DNA of 39,057 nt from a virus, in the IMG/VR virus record IMGVR_UViG_3300007735_000707, positions 1 to 39,057 of that record. One strand, given 5' to 3'. Made by a program: the position numbers and the translations under genes. Positions within the stretch are counted from its first letter, which is position 1; each line of letters begins with the position of its first letter. Under the pieces are notes generated by a model. It made no database searches. It was not told the DNA's origin and worked only from the letters and a program-made list of their open reading frames with translations. Positions 1,472 to 39,057 of the stretch are shown in pieces.

Positions 1472-1622
1472 TTTTGCGCTCCTGTTCTACCTGCTTATCC
1501 TCACAATTAGGACAAGTCAAGGATGAATAAACTGCATAGTCGTACCAGTCGTTACACTCTATGCACGCAATGTAGTCTGAGTCGTCGTAAAATACTGGGT
1601 CATTTAGTTGTGGCTCACTCAT
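1443..1622 (-). CDS. Small CxxC-CxxC protein, 59 aa
   Basis: The frame begins MSEPQLNDPVFYDDSDY and contains ACIECNDWY (CxxC) and LTCPNCED (CxxC), a four-Cys zinc-ribbon arrangement spaced about 17 residues apart. The N-terminus is acidic and the tail after the ribbon is charged. It starts inside the end of the previous gene (8-nt overlap) and carries in its 3' part the AACAGGAG used by the next start. Function unknown; it belongs to the set of Cys-knuckle mini-proteins in this operon. Confidence 0.7.
   Translation of the reverse strand: MSEPQLNDPVFYDDSDYIACIECNDWYDYAVYSSLTCPNCEDKQVEQERKIETTIPSSV
1479..1486 (-). promoter_or_regulatory. Start-associated sequence variant (AACAGGAG)
   Basis: Leftward AACAGGAG located 7 nt before the TTG at 1471; a one-base variant of the repeated GACAGGAG element. 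It decides the unusual TTG start. Confidence 0.6.
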
Positions 1623-1719
1623 CTTCGTCTTCCTCTGTGATAAATCCTAAATCTTTGAGTGCTTGAATTGCTTCGTGTAAAGTCTTGAGTGCTTCTATCT
1701 GTTGTTGTTCTGTGCTCAT
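1615..1719 (-). CDS. Acidic mini-protein, 34 aa
   Basis: A short frame starting MSTEQQQIEALKTLHEAIQ and ending TEEDEDE. It is probably one amphipathic helix followed by an acidic tail. It is preceded by AAGACAGGAG at seven-base spacing and overlaps both neighbours (ATGA upstream, 8 nt downstream), the normal packing here. No function can be assigned; a helix with an acidic tail could bind a protein partner (inference). Confidence 0.65.
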   Translation of the reverse strand: MSTEQQQIEALKTLHEAIQALKDLGFITEEDEDE

Positions 1720-1853
1720 TCATTTTCTCCTGTCTTAAGTGATAAGTGTTCTCTGATTGATAAGTGGATTAAACAATAGAATGAGTTGTCCTGTGGTTGG
1801 TTACAGCAAGTGCTTATCTTGCAGAACTTCATTTTAATTTTTCCGTCACTCAT
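1716..1853 (-). CDS. Small Cys/His protein, 45 aa
   Basis: Starts MSDGKIKMKFCKISTCC and continues NSFYCLIHLSIREHLS: a Cys/His set (C, CC, C, H) that could hold one zinc ion. The start at 1853 is chosen over an upstream ATG in the same frame because AGACAGGAGAATAAA directly precedes it. Its last codons read LKTGENE, where KTGE is encoded by the start-associated sequence of the next gene. Function unknown. Confidence 0.65.
   Translation of the reverse strand: MSDGKIKMKFCKISTCCNQPQDNSFYCLIHLSIREHLSLKTGENE
1727..1736 (-). promoter_or_regulatory. Start-associated sequence AAGACAGGAG
   Basis: Lies just before the start at 1719 and encodes KTGE at the end of the upstream protein. Confidence 0.75.
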
Positions 1854-1854
1854 T

Positions 1855-1998
1855 TTATTCTCCTGTCTTTGGGCAGTCGCCGTATGGGTACTCGTGTGGT
1901 TCTGTGTCTTCACACATACACCAGCCAAACTTATCTACCTGTGTTTCGTGTGTCAACTCTGCTAACTCTGACCAACTTAGTTGTTCTTCTTCTTGCAT
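1855..1998 (-). CDS. Acidic Cys-containing mini-protein, 47 aa
   Basis: Starts MQEEEQLSWSELAEL and contains GWCMCEDTEPHEY and GDCPKTGE. The three Cys and one His may bind a metal. The final residues PKTGE are encoded by the start-associated sequence of the following gene; its stop TAA lies one base before the next ATG. It is preceded by its own AAGACAGGAGAATAAA. Function unknown. Confidence 0.65.
   Translation of the reverse strand: MQEEEQLSWSELAELTHETQVDKFGWCMCEDTEPHEYPYGDCPKTGE
1860..1869 (-). promoter_or_regulatory. Start-associated sequence AAGACAGGAG
   Basis: Followed by AATAAA and the ATG at 1853; doubles as the codons for KTGE plus stop of the upstream gene. Confidence 0.8.
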
Positions 1999-1999
1999 T

Positions 2000-2437
2000 T
2001 TATTCTCCTGTCTTGCAGTTCCAAACACCAAGACGCTTTGCCCTGGCTTGCCTTGCGTAGTTGTCTATTTGTTGTGCGTACTTTCCCCTCATTCCTTGGT
2101 AGAAATAAGGCTTTGCGTATCCATACTTTACGAGTTCAAGATTAAGGTTTCGGTTTCCCTTTGTCAAGTAACCTAGTGCCCTGCCGAACTCGTCAAAACT
2201 ATCTAGGCTTTCATCTCGTATGAGTTTGAATTTCCCATTTAGTTTTAAAAAATTGTGCGTGTATGTCGTTGCCTCTTTGTAGTAACACTCCCCCTTCTCA
2301 GGTGTGTTTATCTGCACCAACCTTACCCAGACCTTGCCAGTATGTATCGTGTCTCCGTCCGTTGCAATTGGAGAGGTCAAGGTCAGGGCTAAGGCTAGGG
2401 CTAGCGTTTGCGTTTTAGTTCCTGTGCGTGGTGGCAT
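2000..2437 (-). CDS. Secreted thermonuclease (SNase)-like protein, 145 aa
   Basis: Probable extracellular or surface nuclease of the micrococcal nuclease fold. The N-terminus TQTLALALALTLTSPIA is a signal peptide. Family motifs follow: DGDT at 27-30, VRLVQINTPE at 38-47 (Arg39, Glu47; the usual Asp of xDTPE is Asn44, as in many SNase relatives with INxPE), and DEFGRALGYL with Arg86. The closing pattern is NLELVKYGYA and LGVWNC. It might degrade host-released DNA or a competitor's DNA (inference). It ends NCKTGE, sharing the KTGE tail with its neighbours. The start at 2437 overlaps a small upstream frame, and the start is less certain than the fold. Confidence 0.85.
   Translation of the reverse strand: MPPRTGTKTQTLALALALTLTSPIATDGDTIHTGKVWVRLVQINTPEKGECYYKEATTYTHNFLKLNGKFKLIRDESLDSFDEFGRALGYLTKGNRNLNLELVKYGYAKPYFYQGMRGKYAQQIDNYARQARAKRLGVWNCKTGE
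2005..2014 (-). promoter_or_regulatory. Start-associated sequence AAGACAGGAG
   Basis: Followed by AATAAA and the ATG at 1998; encodes KTGE plus stop at the end of the thermonuclease-like protein. Confidence 0.8.
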
Positions 2438-2475
2438 TCATTGACTGGTCGTAAGCAGTCTCCGCAGATTGGCAT
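2401..2475 (-). CDS. Candidate Cys/His peptide, 24 aa
   Basis: A very short frame MPICGDCLRPVNECHHAQEL ending in a basic KRKR. It carries CxxC and CHH, a plausible single zinc knuckle. Its ATG overlaps the stop of the gene at 2475-2639 (TAATG), the coupling used throughout this operon, and it overlaps the thermonuclease start by 37 nt in another frame. It may be a real peptide or merely a coupling device that feeds ribosomes to the nuclease start. Confidence 0.45.
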   Translation of the reverse strand: MPICGDCLRPVNECHHAQELKRKR

Positions 2476-2639
2476 TACTCACCCCTGTATTTGATAATAG
2501 TCTGCAAAGTTGTGCAGATTTTGCACTCGCAAGGCTCCCCGCCCATATTCCACTCGAACTCTAGGTGTGAATAGTTATCCTCGTAAATTTCATTTATTAA
2601 TTGCTCGACTGTGTAGGGCTTGGTTTCTGTGGCGTTCAT
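2475..2639 (-). CDS. Small Cys-knuckle protein, 54 aa
   Basis: Starts MNATETKPYTVEQLINEIYE and contains MGGEPCECKICTTLQTI, a CxCxxC knuckle near residues 38-42, ending KYRGE. It is coupled at both ends (ATGA upstream, TAATG downstream). The N-terminal helix plus Cys cluster suggests a small metal-binding adaptor. I recognise no family. Confidence 0.65.
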   Translation of the reverse strand: MNATETKPYTVEQLINEIYEDNYSHLEFEWNMGGEPCECKICTTLQTIIKYRGE

Positions 2640-2959
2640 TCGTTGCCCCGTTCTGTAATCATCAAGCCTGTACGAATCCCCGCTATGAGGCTCCTAAGGG
2701 TGCGCTCCGCCTCTGCCTTGGTTCCGCCTAGGTAATCACTAAACCCGCGAGGTTCCCAATGTCCCGACCCGTATTTACTCCCGCCTGTAAAGTGAATGCG
2801 AAAGGCTCGCCCGTAGGTCTTGCTCCCCTCTTGTAGTACTAGGTGAGGGCGTTTCATTGACTCGTAAGCCTCTGGCACTTCTTCGCCCTCTAATAATGGC
2901 TTTACTAATTCTTCAAGCACGCCAACAAGGCGGTGTAGGTCTTCCATTTTGGTTTGCAT
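2636..2959 (-). CDS. Hypothetical protein, 107 aa
   Basis: No family recognised. Residues 1-35 form a Leu/Glu-rich helix (HRLVGVLEELVKPLLEG). The middle is beta-like (RAFRIHFTGGSKYG, GHWEPRGFSDYLGG), and a final helix is rich in Arg/Ala/Glu (TKAEAERTLRSLIAGI). Two ATGs lie close together at 2959 and 2947; 2959 is preferred because GACAGGAG lies upstream. It overlaps the next start as ATGA. Confidence 0.75.
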   Translation of the reverse strand: MQTKMEDLHRLVGVLEELVKPLLEGEEVPEAYESMKRPHLVLQEGSKTYGRAFRIHFTGGSKYGSGHWEPRGFSDYLGGTKAEAERTLRSLIAGIRTGLMITERGNE

Positions 2960-2960
2960 T

Positions 2961-3053
2961 TTAAAATTCTCCTGTCGTTAGGTCGTCGTCTAGTAGTAAG
3001 CCTGCCAAACATAGCAAGGCTATAGGTGCAAGGGCTAAAAGTAAAGGGGTCAC
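2961..3053 (-). CDS. Single-pass membrane peptide, 30 aa
   Basis: GTG start overlapping the stop of the upstream peptide. The sequence is MTPLLLALAPIALLCLAGLL followed by DDDLTTGEF: one hydrophobic span of about 20 residues, then an acidic tail. The TTGE before the stop is again encoded by the GACAGGAG element. With its neighbour at 3050-3145 it forms a pair of tiny membrane proteins; a holin-like or membrane-anchor role is possible but not shown. Confidence 0.55.
   Translation of the reverse strand: MTPLLLALAPIALLCLAGLLLDDDLTTGEF
2969..2976 (-). promoter_or_regulatory. Start-associated sequence GACAGGAG
   Basis: Precedes the ATG at 2959 and codes for part of the TTGEF tail of the upstream peptide. 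Confidence 0.7.
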
Positions 3054-3145
3054 TTCTTGCCCCTCTCGTGCTTGATTGTGTCAATGATTACGGGAACCCA
3101 CAGCAACAACACCGCCGTGAGGTAGCAGGCTAGTAGGGTGTTCAT
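3050..3145 (-). CDS. Single-pass membrane peptide, 31 aa
   Basis: MNTLLACYLTAVLLLWVPVI followed by IDTIKHERGKK: one membrane span with a basic C-terminal tail, suggesting the N-terminus faces outward under the positive-inside rule. Its ATG overlaps the stop of the gene at 3142-3450 (ATGA), and its stop overlaps the GTG of the next membrane peptide. The paired arrangement suggests co-production. Function unknown. Confidence 0.6.
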   Translation of the reverse strand: MNTLLACYLTAVLLLWVPVIIDTIKHERGKK

Positions 3146-3450
3146 ACGATAACCGCCAAACTTTCCGCAATTGCTCGGCGGGTAAGGTTTTGGTGCTTGC
3201 TTGTTGTAACGCTGAATTTTTGCTCAACTACATACCAAGCCTCATTCGTACGCCAAGCAATAGGCGTCCCGTATGAATAAACAAAATACGTAATGCGGTC
3301 AGATGTCAAATCGTCAACGAATTTTGTTAGTTCTGTGAGGTTAAGGCGTCCGCATCCCTGTGAATAGGTGCTCCCTGTAAGGGCTGACGCCTTGAACTCT
3401 TGCCCTGTTGCTATGTAGTGAATTGCGTCTCTCTGGTTCATTTGTTTCAT
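3142..3450 (-). CDS. Hypothetical protein, 102 aa
   Basis: Starts MKQMNQRDAIHYIATGQEF and ends SKHQNLTRRAIAESLAVIV. The start has a strong AGGAGG at six bases. The central stretch ITYFVYSYGTPIAWRTNEAWYVVEQKF is strongly beta and aromatic. I recall the pattern of an N-terminal sequestering helix, a YGTPIAW beta hairpin and a C-terminal HxxLTRRA in small phage proteins, but without a known role. Overlaps the following membrane peptide as ATGA. Confidence 0.8.
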   Translation of the reverse strand: MKQMNQRDAIHYIATGQEFKASALTGSTYSQGCGRLNLTELTKFVDDLTSDRITYFVYSYGTPIAWRTNEAWYVVEQKFSVTTSKHQNLTRRAIAESLAVIV

Positions 3451-3455
3451 TTTTT

Positions 3456-3488
3456 CCTCCTGTTGTTGTCTTGCTGTGGGTGTTTCCC
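3456..3488 (-). promoter_or_regulatory. Hairpin plus start-associated sequence, module A
   Basis: Reading leftward, a small hairpin GGG-AAACA-CCC (3488-3478) is followed by AAGAC and then AACAGGAGG before the ATG at 3450. It shares the G-rich stem and AACA loop with the modules at 4073-4102 and 4345-4371. No gene covers 3451-3549. Confidence 0.6.
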
Positions 3489-3489
3489 G

Positions 3490-3538
3490 TACCCCGCTAT
3501 AGTCTCGAACTATGCGCCCTCTGTAAAGGGTGCGGGGC
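3490..3538 (-). other. tRNA-like minimal fold in intergenic gap
   Basis: On the leftward strand a 7-bp closing stem (GCCCCGC with GCGGGGT) encloses two hairpins. One is CCCT/AGGG; the other has the TPsiC-loop sequence GTTCGAGAC on an ATAG/CTAT stem. The geometry is a tRNA acceptor plus T arm with most of the rest missing: 49 nt, no CCA and no anticodon arm that I can identify. It could be a degenerate tRNA or a regulatory RNA fold. Confidence 0.45.
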
Positions 3539-3549
3539 TGTGAGTTGCC

Positions 3550-3795
3550 TCACATAGCCTCAATTATGAGCGTCTCCCTGTCTACCTCCTCGCAGAATGC
3601 TCGCGCCTCTTTTAAGGTGTTGAATGTCTGGCGGTAGTCAATCTCTCGCCCGAATGTGTAACGCCCCGCGGTATAGCCTGTGTAGTAGCCTCCCGCCTTC
3701 TTGATGTAGTAGTATTTAAAAACGCGGGTAGTTCCCTCTTCGCTTGTCTGCACTAGCCCTCTAAAATGGTTTGAGAGTTTTGGGTTCCATTTCAT
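3550..3795 (-). CDS. Hypothetical protein, 81 aa
   Basis: Starts MKWNPKLSNHFRGLVQ; the middle is Tyr-rich and beta-like (FKYYYIKKAGGYYTGYTAGRY). The end FNTLKEARAFCEEVDRETL is a helix of a type I associate with many small phage proteins. The protein is basic. Its start overlaps the stop of the zinc-ribbon peptide (TAATG), and it is the last gene before the 99-bp gap holding the tRNA-like fold. Function unknown. Confidence 0.75.
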   Translation of the reverse strand: MKWNPKLSNHFRGLVQTSEEGTTRVFKYYYIKKAGGYYTGYTAGRYTFGREIDYRQTFNTLKEARAFCEEVDRETLIIEAM

Positions 3796-3902
3796 TACTT
3801 CACCGCCTTTTTATGGTTCTTGCGTGTGCATTTCCCGCAAATTTTGTGAGCCGTAAAGGCTAGCAATAGGTCGCTATCGTCTCCGCACTGTAGGCACTTC
3901 AT
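3795..3902 (-). CDS. Zinc-ribbon peptide, 35 aa
   Basis: MKCLQCGDDSDLLL, then HKICGKCTRKNHKKAVK. The two CxxC knuckles 19 residues apart make a classical four-Cys zinc ribbon followed by a strongly basic tail that could contact nucleic acid. Both ends are coupled by TAATG overlaps. Role unknown. Confidence 0.7.
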   Translation of the reverse strand: MKCLQCGDDSDLLLAFTAHKICGKCTRKNHKKAVK

Positions 3903-4063
3903 TACTTAACCGCCTTGCGTGTCTTTAGAACCTTGCGAACTCTCAAGGCTACGATTACGGCGACGCCTAGGGCTAGCCCTCTATTGTCAATGTAAAGGTC
4001 AACTAGTCGGGTCTCAAAATAAAATCCGAACTTATCTAGCCCAATCTCAAAAAATTTTGTCAT
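3902..4063 (-). CDS. Small membrane protein, 53 aa
   Basis: MTKFFEIGLDKFGFYFETRL, then NRGLALGVAVIVALRVRKVL: one membrane span around residues 28-40 followed by a very basic tail (RVRKVLKTRKAVK). An amphipathic N-terminal helix precedes the span. It is preceded by AAGACAGGAGAATAAAGAA and a stem-loop (4089-4102). Topology suggests the basic tail is cytoplasmic. Function unknown. Confidence 0.65.
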   Translation of the reverse strand: MTKFFEIGLDKFGFYFETRLVDLYIDNRGLALGVAVIVALRVRKVLKTRKAVK

Positions 4064-4072
4064 TTCTTTATT

Positions 4073-4102
4073 CTCCTGTCTTAAGGCGGGGCGGTGTTGC
4101 CC
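4073..4102 (-). promoter_or_regulatory. Hairpin plus start-associated sequence, module B
   Basis: Reading leftward, GGGC-AACACC-GCCC (4102-4089) is followed a few bases later by AAGACAGGAG (4082-4073), then the ATG at 4063. Same design as the modules at 3456-3488 and 4345-4371. Confidence 0.65.
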
Positions 4103-4110
4103 TGTCCTTG

Positions 4111-4153
4111 TGCCCCCGTCGGATTGTGAACCCGTAGCCCGTAGCGCGGGGGC
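4111..4153 (-). other. Second tRNA-like minimal fold
   Basis: On the leftward strand a perfect 7-bp stem GCCCCCG/CGGGGGC encloses a T-arm-like hairpin ACGGG-TTCACAA-TCCGA, in which one pair is G-U only on this strand. A 43-nt acceptor plus T-arm shape is left, with no anticodon arm. It lies in the 104-bp gap 4064-4167, just upstream of module B. It could instead be a GC-rich attenuator. Confidence 0.4.
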
Positions 4154-4167
4154 GGTTTTGCCCTTGA

Positions 4168-4338
4168 TTACATTCTCACCCCGCCGATAATGAACCCGCC
4201 CGCTAAGATGTAGTAAAGGTCACTCAAAACATTCTCAATAGTCTGCAACATTTCACCCTCTGCGCCGTATGATTTCTCGGCTTGGATTTGGTTATCAATC
4301 GCGCCCTTGATTTCTTCTAGTGTGAGAGTCTTGTTCAT
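4168..4338 (-). CDS. First gene of leftward operon, 56 aa hypothetical
   Basis: MNKTLTLEEIKGAIDNQIQA and then QTIENVLSDLYYILAGGFI. It begins with a long amphipathic helix and ends in a hydrophobic stretch YYILAGGFIIGGV that could insert in or lie on the membrane. It is preceded by CAAGACAGGAGAACAAA. As the first gene after the control region it would be among the earliest products of this operon. No family recognised. Confidence 0.65.
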   Translation of the reverse strand: MNKTLTLEEIKGAIDNQIQAEKSYGAEGEMLQTIENVLSDLYYILAGGFIIGGVRM

Positions 4339-4344
4339 TTTGTT

Positions 4345-4371
4345 CTCCTGTCTTGTCGGGGCTTGTTCCCC
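4345..4371 (-). promoter_or_regulatory. Hairpin plus start-associated sequence, module C
   Basis: Reading leftward, GGGG-AACAAG-CCCC (4371-4358), then GAC, then AAGACAGGAG (4354-4345) and the ATG at 4338. This is the clearest of the three leftward hairpin-plus-start modules. Confidence 0.7.
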
Positions 4372-32853: not shown

Positions 32854-32897
32854 AGACCCTCAGGTCATAGGATTACCTATGGCTTGGGGGTCTTTTT
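32854..32897 (+). terminator. Strong late terminator
   Basis: An 18-bp hairpin (AGACCCTCAGGTCATAGG with its complement, three G-U pairs, loop ATTA) followed by TTTTTG. Ends the 28-kb late region. Confidence 0.92.
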
Positions 32898-32951: not shown

Positions 32952-33035
32952 TAAATTATTAATTAAATATTATTAATTAATATAGGCGCGAAGCGCCGAT
33001 ATAATATATAATTATTATTATATATATAACTTAAT
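32946..33035. other. AT-rich palindromic tract, origin candidate
   Basis: Repeated TTAATTAA/TATTAATTA motifs surround one GC hairpin GGCGC-GAA-GCGCC (32985-32997). Placed between terminators and the replication genes. Could be a DNA-unwinding element or merely a promoter region; the comparable AT tract at 4785-5030 is the alternative origin. Confidence 0.35.
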
Positions 33036-33039
33036 AGAT

Positions 33040-33095
33040 TTACATAGTTCTCCCTTATTGAGTACCCTCCTGTCCTCTAAGGGAGGACTATGTAA
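33040..33095 (+). promoter_or_regulatory. 18-bp stem-loop leader with anti-SD loop
   Basis: Arms 33040-33057 and 33078-33095 pair over 18 bp with a single G-U. The 20-nt loop contains CTCCTGTC (33067-33074), exactly complementary to GACAGGAG at 33105-33112, the ribosome site of the nuclease gene, with a 9-nt linker. An H-type pseudoknot could hide the ribosome site. Confidence 0.6.
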
Positions 33096-33104
33096 CACTT
33101 ACTA

Positions 33105-33112
33105 GACAGGAG
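33105..33112 (+). promoter_or_regulatory. Start-associated sequence GACAGGAG
   Basis: Six bases before the ATG at 33119; can be masked by the loop at 33067-33074. Confidence 0.75.
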
Positions 33113-33118
33113 AAGTCG

Positions 33119-33304
33119 ATGATAAAATTGGATAGTTATGAACTACCAGCACACATAAGTTACTCAGCATTTACAACTTACCTAACCTGTGGCTACCAGT
33201 ATTACCTAGGTAGATTACTGCAGGTCCCAGAGGAACCATCCATCTGGTCAGCAGGCGGACGAGCATTTCACTTAGCAGCAGAGTTGTATGACTATGACAA
33301 CTAA
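33119..33304 (+). CDS. Cas4/RecB-like nuclease, N-terminal part, 61 aa
   Basis: Carries the first motifs of a Fe-S PD-(D/E)XK nuclease: YSAFTTYLTCGYQYYLGRLL with Cys24 (first cluster Cys), then SAGGRAFHLAAE with His51 (motif I). The rest of the enzyme lies in the next frame, starting at 33288 inside this gene. The frames are related by +1. Either two coupled polypeptides form one enzyme, or ribosomes shift frame, or a one-base indel has split it. Confidence 0.8.
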   Translation: MIKLDSYELPAHISYSAFTTYLTCGYQYYLGRLLQVPEEPSIWSAGGRAFHLAAELYDYDN

Positions 33305-33896
33305 CCCACTATGGGAACAAGCGTGGCGTAAGGAGACCGAAGGTCTTGACTTCACCACTGCACGAGTAGCAGGGCGAGCAACCAAACTCAACCCTAACAA
33401 GGAAGATGCTGCTTGGTGGTACGAACAAGGTTCCGTATGGACTGATAACTACATCCTATGGCGCAAGAACAATCCTAACTGGAAAATCTGGACGACACCT
33501 CAGGGTGCCAAGGCTATCGAGTTAGAGTTAAACCCAGTCATCGCTGGAGTACCAGTGAAGATGTTCATTGACAGAATTTTTGAGGTTGACGGTAAGTTAG
33601 TTATTGTCGACTTAAAGACTTCTCGTGCACGTCCTCAATCTGACCTTCAGTTGGGCTTCTACAAAATAGGAGTCGAGATGATGCTGGGTGTGGAAGTCAA
33701 TCTAGGAAACTACTGGATGTCTCGTGAGTCGGGGACAGGAGAGATGATTGACCTAAGTAGGTATACACAGGACACGCTTGAATACTTTGTTGATGGCTTT
33801 GACAAAGCACGCAAGGCTGGTATATTTCTACCGAACCTACAATCGTGCAATTTCTGTGGACTTACAGAACATTGCCAATTCACGAAGGAAAAATAA
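33288..33896 (+). CDS. Cas4/RecB-like nuclease, C-terminal part, 202 aa
   Basis: Contains the nuclease core: Asp95 in VKMFIDRIFEV, Asp108-x-Lys110 in LVIVDLKTSR, and Gln121 in DLQLGFYKIG. The last three cluster cysteines are in SCNFCGLTEHC (187, 190, 196). It lacks motif I His and the first Cys, which are in the upstream frame. The family acts as a 5'-3' or end-processing exonuclease in recombination and replication. The ATG at 33288 lies 14 nt before the upstream stop, suited to reinitiation. Confidence 0.85.
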   Translation: MTMTTNPLWEQAWRKETEGLDFTTARVAGRATKLNPNKEDAAWWYEQGSVWTDNYILWRKNNPNWKIWTTPQGAKAIELELNPVIAGVPVKMFIDRIFEVDGKLVIVDLKTSRARPQSDLQLGFYKIGVEMMLGVEVNLGNYWMSRESGTGEMIDLSRYTQDTLEYFVDGFDKARKAGIFLPNLQSCNFCGLTEHCQFTKEK

Positions 33897-34418: not shown

Positions 34419-34465
34419 TTGGTGGAGGGGTATTTATTAGGGGAAGATATCTACCCCTCTTCCAA
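34419..34465 (+). promoter_or_regulatory. 14-bp stem-loop leader with a competing hairpin
   Basis: TTGGTGGAGGGGTA (34419-34432) pairs with TACCCCTCTTCCAA (34452-34465) with one mismatch and one G-U. The alternative AGGGG (34439-34443) with CCCCT (34454-34458) excludes it. Sits just before the GACAGGAG at 34471. TAGAAT at 34414 may be a -10, but no good -35 is seen. Confidence 0.5.
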
Positions 34466-34484: not shown

Positions 34485-34586
34485 ATGGAAAAAACAATTA
34501 AGTATTTATTACAAGAAGCATATGTAGATGGCTACAAAGATGGATATAACGCTGCTACTGAAGATGCTAAGAAGACTAAAGAATGA
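34485..34586 (+). CDS. Mini-protein, 33 aa
   Basis: MEKTIKYLLQEAYVDGYKDG followed by YNAATEDAKKTKE; a Tyr/Lys/Glu helix. Preceded by the start-associated sequence and coupled to the ATPase gene by ATGA. It may act as a leader peptide controlling the ATPase (inference). Confidence 0.65.
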   Translation: MEKTIKYLLQEAYVDGYKDGYNAATEDAKKTKE

Positions 34587-38132: not shown

Positions 38133-38818
38133 CAATCGAGTGGGAGAGAATCCAGAACTGGCAGTATGTAGTTGATGCAGTAAGTTCTGAATACTCACGC
38201 AAGTTTCCAACCATTGACATAGAAGACATCAGACAGTCTCTCTATCAGTGGTTTGTTGAGCACCCAAATAAGTTAGATACCTGGGAAGCAATCGGTGACA
38301 AGGATGCGAAGAACCTTATCTATCGTAGCCTACGCAATCAAGCATTAGATTATTGCAACCATTGGAAAGCAAAGTCTGGTGGCTACGAAACCAGCGATTT
38401 ATTTTTCTATGAAGCAGATATGGTTGAGGCACTCCTGCCTCCTGTACTTCGCGGGGAGTGGGGCGTAACCCACAAGTTAAATCTTGGTAGACCAGGGCGT
38501 CCATCTGCACCTAACGAGGGTGGCAACCTTATGGCTATGATGATTGAGGTTGACTATGCATTCTGGAAACTGCCTAAAGATGACAGGAAGATACTATTCC
38601 TACGCTATGCAGAGTCAATGGAGTTCGGTGACATTGGCAAAGAGTTAGAGATTGGTTCAGAAGATGCGGTGCGGATGCGCCACAAGAGAGCCATTAGAAA
38701 ACTGATTAATAAAATCGGTGGCTTCAAACCATTCCGCGATGATGACGTCGTTCAGTCTGAAGATTCAGGCGTTGATTCTGCTGGGTCTACCCAGAGTGAT
38801 TCACCTACTGAGTCATAG
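38129..38818 (+). CDS. Sigma-70-like protein, 229 aa
   Basis: Possible phage sigma factor or sigma-derived regulator. Residues 30-80 (IEDIRQSLYQWFVEH, NLIYRSLRNQALDYCNHW) resemble region 2. Residues about 165-210 (LPKDDRKILFLRYAESMEFG, IGKELEIGSEDAVRMRHKRA) resemble the region 4 helix-turn-helix. It ends with an acidic Ser/Thr tail. It may direct host RNA polymerase to phage promoters. Its last 67 nt overlap the convergent gene at 38752. Confidence 0.75.
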   Translation: MTIEWERIQNWQYVVDAVSSEYSRKFPTIDIEDIRQSLYQWFVEHPNKLDTWEAIGDKDAKNLIYRSLRNQALDYCNHWKAKSGGYETSDLFFYEADMVEALLPPVLRGEWGVTHKLNLGRPGRPSAPNEGGNLMAMMIEVDYAFWKLPKDDRKILFLRYAESMEFGDIGKELEIGSEDAVRMRHKRAIRKLINKIGGFKPFRDDDVVQSEDSGVDSAGSTQSDSPTES

Positions 38819-38910
38819 AACTCTTCAATCTCTTTACCGCTAGCAAACTGTAACTCTGTGTTGCGTGGCTCACAATTACTGCAACCACCATTCTCACATA
38901 CTGTACACAT
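38752..38910 (-). CDS. Cys-rich small protein, last gene of leftward operon, 52 aa
   Basis: MCTVCENGGCSNCEPRNTEL then GKEIEEFYDSVGESLWVDPA and an acidic end. The CxxC ... CxxC cluster fits one zinc ion. The start at 38910 is chosen because AACAGGAGGATAAG precedes it; an in-frame upstream extension would pass through the FmdB-like gene. Converges on and overlaps the sigma-like gene. Confidence 0.75.
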   Translation of the reverse strand: MCTVCENGGCSNCEPRNTELQFASGKEIEEFYDSVGESLWVDPAESTPESSD

Positions 38911-38911
38911 C

Positions 38912-39057
38912 TTATCCTCCTGTTGAATAGAATCCAGTTCCCTTGAACTGAACCGCTGGTGTGTTGTAAATTCTACTAGATACCTGCCCACAAACGCAAG
39001 TAACTTCATCATCTCGCTCTTCGATTTTGCGATTTATAATTGTTAGTGAATGACACT
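38912..39057 (-). CDS. FmdB-like zinc-ribbon protein, 3' part (duplicate end copy)
   Basis: Second representation of the gene at 1-155, lacking its first nine codons because the contig ends. The last codons FYSTGG and the stop at 38912-38914 are found only here. Differs from the left copy by Leu39 to Ile and one silent change. Confidence 0.85.
   Translation of the reverse strand, partial: CHSLTIINRKIEERDDEVTCVCGQVSSRIYNTPAVQFKGTGFYSTGG
38916..38924 (-). promoter_or_regulatory. Start-associated sequence variant AACAGGAGG
   Basis: Codes for the Thr-Gly-Gly end of the FmdB-like protein and precedes the ATG at 38910. Confidence 0.65.
38931..39057. repeat. Right copy of terminal direct repeat (circular overlap)
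   Basis: Matches 1-127 with two differences (38971 and 39044). Confidence 0.95.

Follow-up and report, generated by a model that had tools for sequence, protein, structure and literature searches.

A start-associated Shine-Dalgarno variant and its complementary hairpin loop in freshwater actinophages: a candidate RNA-based control of early genes

Mycobacteriophages of cluster K carry Start Associated Sequences (SAS, consensus GGGATAGGAGCCC), a Shine-Dalgarno variant that stands just ahead of many unrelated non-structural genes and is preceded at about half of its sites by inverted repeats (ESAS) judged to be DNA-binding sites (PMC3203893, PMC12699233); in K1 phages, a single SAS in the opposite orientation was noted in 2011 as lacking an associated gene start (PMC3203893, PMC12699233). 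In bacteria, anti-Shine-Dalgarno loops such as those of NmsRA/B repress their targets (PMC5362039). We describe here a start-associated motif, GACAGGAG, in the virus record IMGVR_UViG_3300007735_000707 (the window, that is, the whole stretch of 39,057 nucleotides analysed), together with an RNA hairpin that presents its complement.

The window, a near-complete phage genome whose ends repeat each other (1-127 = 38931-39057, 98%), is closely related to the Planktophila phages LanE43-AprE7 and LanE43-AprF5, the first phages of freshwater 'Ca. Nanopelagicales' in culture (PMC10202952). An initial profile search of genome contigs with the RecA-like alignment found no relative. The structural (late) genes run rightward from 5112 to 32814; the non-late genes lie in two blocks, one leftward (below 4400) and one rightward (above 33000). 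All eight GACAGGAG sites of the initial annotation (leftward at 1727, 1860, 2005, 2969, 4073 and 4345; rightward at 33105 and 34471) and its three AACAGGAG variants were recovered, the listed sites lying 3-9 nt ahead of an open frame (Table 1). Two further copies had been overlooked, one at 33734 within a gene and one in antisense, within the leader that precedes the rightward early genes; the latter (33067-33074, + strand) is the sole intergenic copy in opposite orientation in the window and lies within a hairpin loop. ACAGGAG is threefold over-represented in the window (15 copies against 5.2 expected, a number reached in 0 of 100 shuffles). With open reading frames and starts chosen mechanically, as in all our start counts, the motif precedes none of the 34 late genes called, six of which have AGGAG. 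The extended form of the motif is AAGACAGGAGAA.

The restriction to non-late genes holds beyond the window. Among relatives fetched without using the motif, GACAGGAG accounts for 302 of the 754 distinct AGGAG-type non-late starts and for 0 of the 107 late ones (Fisher p 2e-22). As starts from related genomes do not count as independent samples, the safer figure is the number of unrelated non-late protein families carrying the motif, which is 120 with motif-fetched loci included. Its spacing is 3-10 nt ahead of the start codon, and a logo drawn with one start per family reads AA-GACAGGAG-AA, then an A-rich stretch and a start that is mainly ATG. In the host 'Ca. Planktophila' LanE-43, the GAC form occurs at 0 of 40 AGGAG starts (400 kb), and whole-genome host counts are low, near those of a reversed-pattern control; the host start counts rule out a general host ribosome site. 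The late-gene, host-gene and conservation checks proposed in the initial annotation thus leave its claim standing, the motif being kept across unrelated gene families. The exception among host starts is that of infB (translation initiation factor IF-2, GTG start), whose ribosome site is the exact 12-mer AAGACAGGAGAA in LanE-43 (L239:1001-1012) and in three further Planktophila-type genomes (L241-L243), the 12-mer being near-absent at other host starts; in principle, the phage loop could pair with the infB start. Where the motif overlaps an upstream gene (e.g. 1858-1869, 2003-2014) frame 0 is used in 90 cases and the two other frames in 34 and 17; the commonest reading is AAG ACA GGA GAA TAA, so that many small proteins end in KTGE.

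The AAGAC part had initially been placed outside the anti-16S pairing. Its AGA can in fact pair with UCU, and what survives of the claim is the C: AGACAGGAG pairs throughout with the host 16S 3' end save at this one base. An altered anti-Shine-Dalgarno sequence in the host is ruled out, the LanE-43 16S terminating in the ordinary CACCTCCTTTCT. Following GA, the base ahead of AGGAG is C in 302 cases, T in 27, A in 1 and G in 0, and the full 16S match GAAAGGAG is therefore nearly missing (1/330). Since this better match is avoided and a pyrimidine is kept, something other than 16S pairing would seem to hold it there, an argument that was also made for the T of SAS (PMC3203893). C and T are the only bases able to pair with the G of the hairpin loop, which faces the odd C of the motif and can form a wobble pair with U.

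This hairpin precedes the first of the rightward early genes and has a predicted fold of -30.5 kcal/mol (z -3.7). In an alignment of 32 relatives (31 distinct), 100% of the cells of its 18-bp stem are paired, 13 of the 18 pairs are compensatory, and the covariation score is 0.609 as against 0.232 when shuffled and at most 0.138 in slid controls; three inner pairs fit too, one of them covarying, leaving a 12-nt loop, UACUCUCCUGUC. A motif-blind census of the loops of all long-stem hairpins in all loci put CTCCTGTC/GACAGGAG at the top of the 8-mers, on 29 different stems. Searches with the hairpin model (R1) give a single copy per genome, on the strand expected, in nearly all loci with enough upstream DNA, and the conserved loop is present in at least 120 IMG/VR contigs. 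In lineage 1, that of the window, a motif-type start nearly always follows the hairpin after a linker of 4-17 nt. Rfam searches gave nothing near the gathering score for the window (E up to 5), no gathering-score match for loci L005, L018 and L146, and no credible match for L018 at E up to 5. Just upstream, the AT-rich stretch 32960-33040 (+) has a small hairpin, GGCGC-GAA-GCGCC (GGGGC/GCCCC in relatives), and is possibly a promoter or replication element.

The same loop recurs in a second lineage, whose RecA-like protein is about 50% identical. Here the hairpin that carries it is of terminator type, follows whiB and converges with a kinase gene; in most cases it is accompanied by a second hairpin on its 5' side and preceded by a TTGACA/TATAAT-like sequence. 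The stand-alone traits of this RNA are read from such promoter-like and terminator-like sequence. Of 68 loci retrieved through the kinase, 64 have the loop hairpin. Its stem shows 100% pairing and 8 compensatory pairs, and two 104-nt folds have z = -6.2 and -8.1. This lineage uses GACAGGAG (GAC) at 212 of 482 AGGAG starts, and its hairpin is not followed by a motif start, an arrangement in favour of action in trans. Within lineage 1, one sublineage (L159-L165) has neither the hairpin nor GACAGGAG starts. Directly before its RecA-like gene there is another long hairpin (GAAAGAACGCAGTTAC...GTGGCTGCGTTCTTTC; L161:9929-9977, L162:9929-9977, L165:4772-4820).

The initial annotation saw in the motif an analogue of the cluster K SAS, unrelated in sequence. 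The analogy is supported: the motif would work likewise, and structured RNA lies upstream of its leftward intergenic copies. The unrelatedness is not supported, as SAS and motif have the core GAYAGGAG in common, including a pyrimidine at the one position left unpaired with 16S. When exact forms are compared, AAGACAGGAGAA falls outside two mismatches of the SAS consensus, GA-AGGAG alone being common to both. In K1 phages the opposite-orientation SAS is part of a loop, CCTCCTATCC, on a long intergenic hairpin near the right end (at least 107 records), whose stem covariation is modest (3 pairs changed on both sides, 95.6% paired). K4 has CCCTCCTTCCC; K3 and two further phages have no K1-type loop. 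A reverse CTCCTATC in ZoeJ was ruled out as an anti-SAS, being the ordinary SAS of a leftward gene. The K1 arrangement is a lead for explaining SAS, short of proof; a literature search on phage anti-Shine-Dalgarno RNA or cluster K noncoding RNA found nothing direct. The right-end intergenic region of cluster K (L247:9650-10080, Anaya, and relatives) is conserved, has several strong hairpins and mostly no annotated gene, and resembles a locus for noncoding RNA.

Predicted pairing energies suggest what the odd base may do. The motif pairs with the 16S tail at -9.7 kcal/mol, with the window loop at -14.2 and with the 12-nt loop at -15.6; with A replacing C these values become -13.4, -8.0 and -9.4. 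As the C-to-A change reverses the predicted energies, the C appears to swap ribosome pairing for loop pairing. For SAS, the predictions are -9.4 with 16S and -14.6 with the K1 loop, and -12.7 and -10.3 with A replacing U. We find it fairly probable that GACAGGAG is a dedicated Shine-Dalgarno variant marking the non-late genes, and that the loop base-pairs with these early ribosome-binding sites, mainly in trans and probably to repressive effect. Action in trans is suggested because the 21-bp stem and the short linker would hardly allow the loop to pair with the start next to it, and because the loop of lineage 2 is borne by a stand-alone RNA. With lower confidence, the pairing would block 30S binding, so that translation of early genes would fall as the hairpin RNA accumulates; the late genes would be spared, their sites having no C. 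A structured RNA exposing a Shine-Dalgarno complement, the mark of anti-Shine-Dalgarno small RNAs, is indeed what these phages encode.

Several observations nevertheless weigh against such an RNA regulator. The hairpin RNA and its length are predictions from sequence, and in the window lineage the hairpin forms a leader, with no visible sign of a transcript of its own. The AA flanking the motif on either side is conserved and yet not complementary to the loop, which itself is nearly invariant, so that loop and motif show no compensation beyond G-U tolerance (GAU, GACGGGAG). K2, K3 and K5, with their many SAS sites, have no clear anti-SAS loop. Finally, the first hairpin alignment picked hairpins by their anti-motif loop, which inflates loop identity, a worry lessened by the motif-blind census and the kinase-fetched loci of lineage 2.

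Other explanations have to be weighed against the same facts. The hairpin could govern the first rightward early gene alone, its CUCCUGUC pairing in cis, in an alternative fold, with the GACAGGAG just downstream, with the other motifs being simply good ribosome sites. The near-constant proximity of hairpin and motif-type start in lineage 1 speaks for this, but the perfect 18-21 bp stem far outweighs the 8-bp alternative, the linker is short, the lineage-2 loop is not adjacent to a motif start and the 16S-mismatching C kept in 120 families would go unexplained; we consider it unlikely, while giving it some weight. The loop RNA might instead act in trans with the opposite sign, protecting early mRNAs or recruiting a factor, or be titrated by the motifs so as to free another target. 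In favour are the many copies of the motif beside a single copy of the hairpin, and a second conserved loop family, AGGGGAAG, which occurs in this operon as well as on the lineage-2 RNA and could pair with CUCUCCU. However, the pairing with the motif spans the entire Shine-Dalgarno core, and such pairing usually prevents initiation, as with the Neisseria NmsR anti-Shine-Dalgarno RNAs (PMC5362039), and a positive or titrating role seems to us rather doubtful.

A protein might also read the motif in the mRNA, either as a translational repressor or as a RegB-like RNase cutting GGAG as in T4; the motif with its A-rich downstream bases (GGAGAAUAAAA) does match the T4 RegB consensus GG*AGRAYARAA (PMC3014915). 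Yet no RegB-like or credible RNA-binding family was found among the 20 non-late window proteins scanned, and a conserved complementary loop on a covarying stem is not what a protein site would lead one to expect. The protein recogniser of the initial annotation, such as a Cys-knuckle protein, fares no better, Pfam giving no RNA-binding assignment and the genome encoding an RNA loop exactly complementary to the motif; we regard a protein reader as improbable. That the motif is just a strong Shine-Dalgarno site with A-rich flanks, spread by gene shuffling, and the hairpin a coincidence, would fit the pairing of AGGAG with 16S and the shuffling of early genes between phages, where common start linkers could aid recombination. 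The near-absence of the better 16S match GAAAGGAG, the late and host starts without the motif, and the co-occurrence of loop and motif, down to the one sublineage that has neither, make this very improbable indeed.

Two structured RNAs without Rfam match accompany the motif: besides the anti-motif hairpin there is a three-way junction. In the leftward block the module order is a 49-nt three-way junction (model R2), a simple hairpin and the motif. Pairing holds in 97.5% of the junction's cells, compensatory changes affect 12 of its 16 pairs, and in relatives a start of the GAYRGGAG or AACAGGAG type comes 17-41 nt after most copies. Of the stem-loops initially reported upstream of the motif, the three short ones are present in the window (Table 1), but their AACA loop is not conserved; at the same place, downstream of the conserved junction, relatives have hairpins of other sequence, the fold being kept while the sequence changes. 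RNA processing, 5'-end protection and protein binding are possible roles for the junction. Its T-arm-like look might suggest a tRNA-like punctuation, but ARAGORN was negative and A58 of the T-loop is not kept. The R1 and R2 models matched nothing in five host genomes, a weakly informative search as it had no positive control there.

In the rightward block, the AGGGGAAG loop precedes the 34471 motif, and it recurs on the 5' hairpin of the RNA in lineage 2 (L260 and relatives); CUCUCCU, with which it could pair, belongs to the anti-motif loop. The first rightward early gene resembles a PDDEXK_1 (Cas4/RecB-like) nuclease in two overlapping frames, 33119-33304 and 33288-33896 (+), between which profile positions 1-48 and 110-247 are divided, by either a programmed frameshift or a real split.

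Table 1. Features of the window: motif sites, structured RNAs and flanking signals.
Feature	Position	Strand	Remarks
Motif AAGACAGGAGAA	4343..4354	-	exact match; gene 4168-4338; start 6 nt past AGGAG
Motif AAGACAGGAGAA	4071..4082	-	gene 3902-4063; retained in 13/14 distinct orthologue upstreams
Motif ACGACAGGAGAA	2967..2978	-	gene 2636-2959; retained in 11/14 orthologue upstreams
Motif AAGACAGGAGAA	2003..2014	-	ahead of gene 1855-1998
Motif AAGACAGGAGAA	1858..1869	-	ahead of gene with start at 1852
Motif AAGACAGGAGAA	1725..1736	-	gene 1615-1719; GAYAGGAG in 25/36 orthologue upstreams
Motif TAGACAGGAGAA	33103..33114	+	9 nt past hairpin; gene 33119-33304
Motif ACGACAGGAGAA	34469..34480	+	ahead of gene 34485-34586
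Variant AACAGGAG	3457..3464	-	gene 3142-3450; GACAGGAG at same place in several close relatives
Variant AACAGGAG	1479..1486	-	TTG start, gene 1244-1471; in 2/52 relatives, so not conserved
Variant AACAGGAG (AACAGGAGG)	38917..38924	-	gene 38752-38910; relatives keep CAACAGGAGG, hence a distinct ordinary site
Anti-motif hairpin (model R1)	33040..33095	+	18-bp stem and 3 inner pairs (33060-33062 with 33075-33077), 21 bp in all
Terminal loop UACCCUCCUGUC	33063..33074	+	includes CUCCUGUC (33067-33074), exact complement of GACAGGAG
Second hairpin, loop with AGGGGAAG	34425..34459	+	upstream of 34471 motif; T-A to C-G compensation in L087
Three-way-junction RNA (P1 7 bp, P2, P3)	3489..3538	-	between genes 3550-3795 and 3142-3450; R2 match 67.6 bits; fold z -3.4; covariation supported
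Shorter three-way-junction element	4110..4153	-	between genes 4168-4338 and 3902-4063; fold z -1.8
Simple hairpin GGG-AAACA-CCC	3478..3488	-	between three-way junction and start site
Simple hairpin GGGC-AACACC-GCCC	4089..4102	-	between three-way junction and motif
Simple hairpin GGGG-AACAAG-CCCC	4358..4371	-	ahead of first leftward motif; found in two relatives
Late-operon intrinsic terminator	32854..32893	+	separates late operon from anti-motif hairpin leader
Promoter-like TTAATA-17-TATAAT	32977..33005	+	upstream of hairpin leader; weak (1 found, 1.3 expected in shuffles)

Taken more broadly, we would give even chances to a lock-and-key regulon, a Shine-Dalgarno variant as the lock and the loop of one phage RNA as the key, in the two freshwater actinophage lineages and, separately, in the K1 mycobacteriophages; if true, it would explain the Start Associated Sequences, a question open since 2011. 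It would offer an RNA mechanism for class-wide control of early genes in viruses of very abundant freshwater bacteria and, if working, a simple RNA switch by which one small RNA co-regulates many genes. Compared with SAS, the motif differs in its outer bases, which are AA..AA instead of GGG..CCC, and the upstream elements are not the imperfect 17-bp inverted repeats of conserved sequence that make up ESAS: unlike those presumed DNA-binding sites (PMC3203893, PMC12699233), the three-way junction and the variable-sequence hairpins of the window phages covary as RNA. The small RNAs NmsRA and NmsRB of Neisseria likewise present, within a multi-stem-loop RNA, a UC-rich loop complementary to the Shine-Dalgarno regions of several mRNAs (PMC5362039); here, by contrast, the RNA is encoded by a virus and its putative targets bear a matched non-16S base, so that one RNA could act on an entire class of genes in its own genome. 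In T4, RegB and RegA also shut off early genes as a class through their ribosome-binding sites (PMC3014915), as we propose from sequence for the window phages, but the T4 control is protein-based and has no complementary RNA loop.

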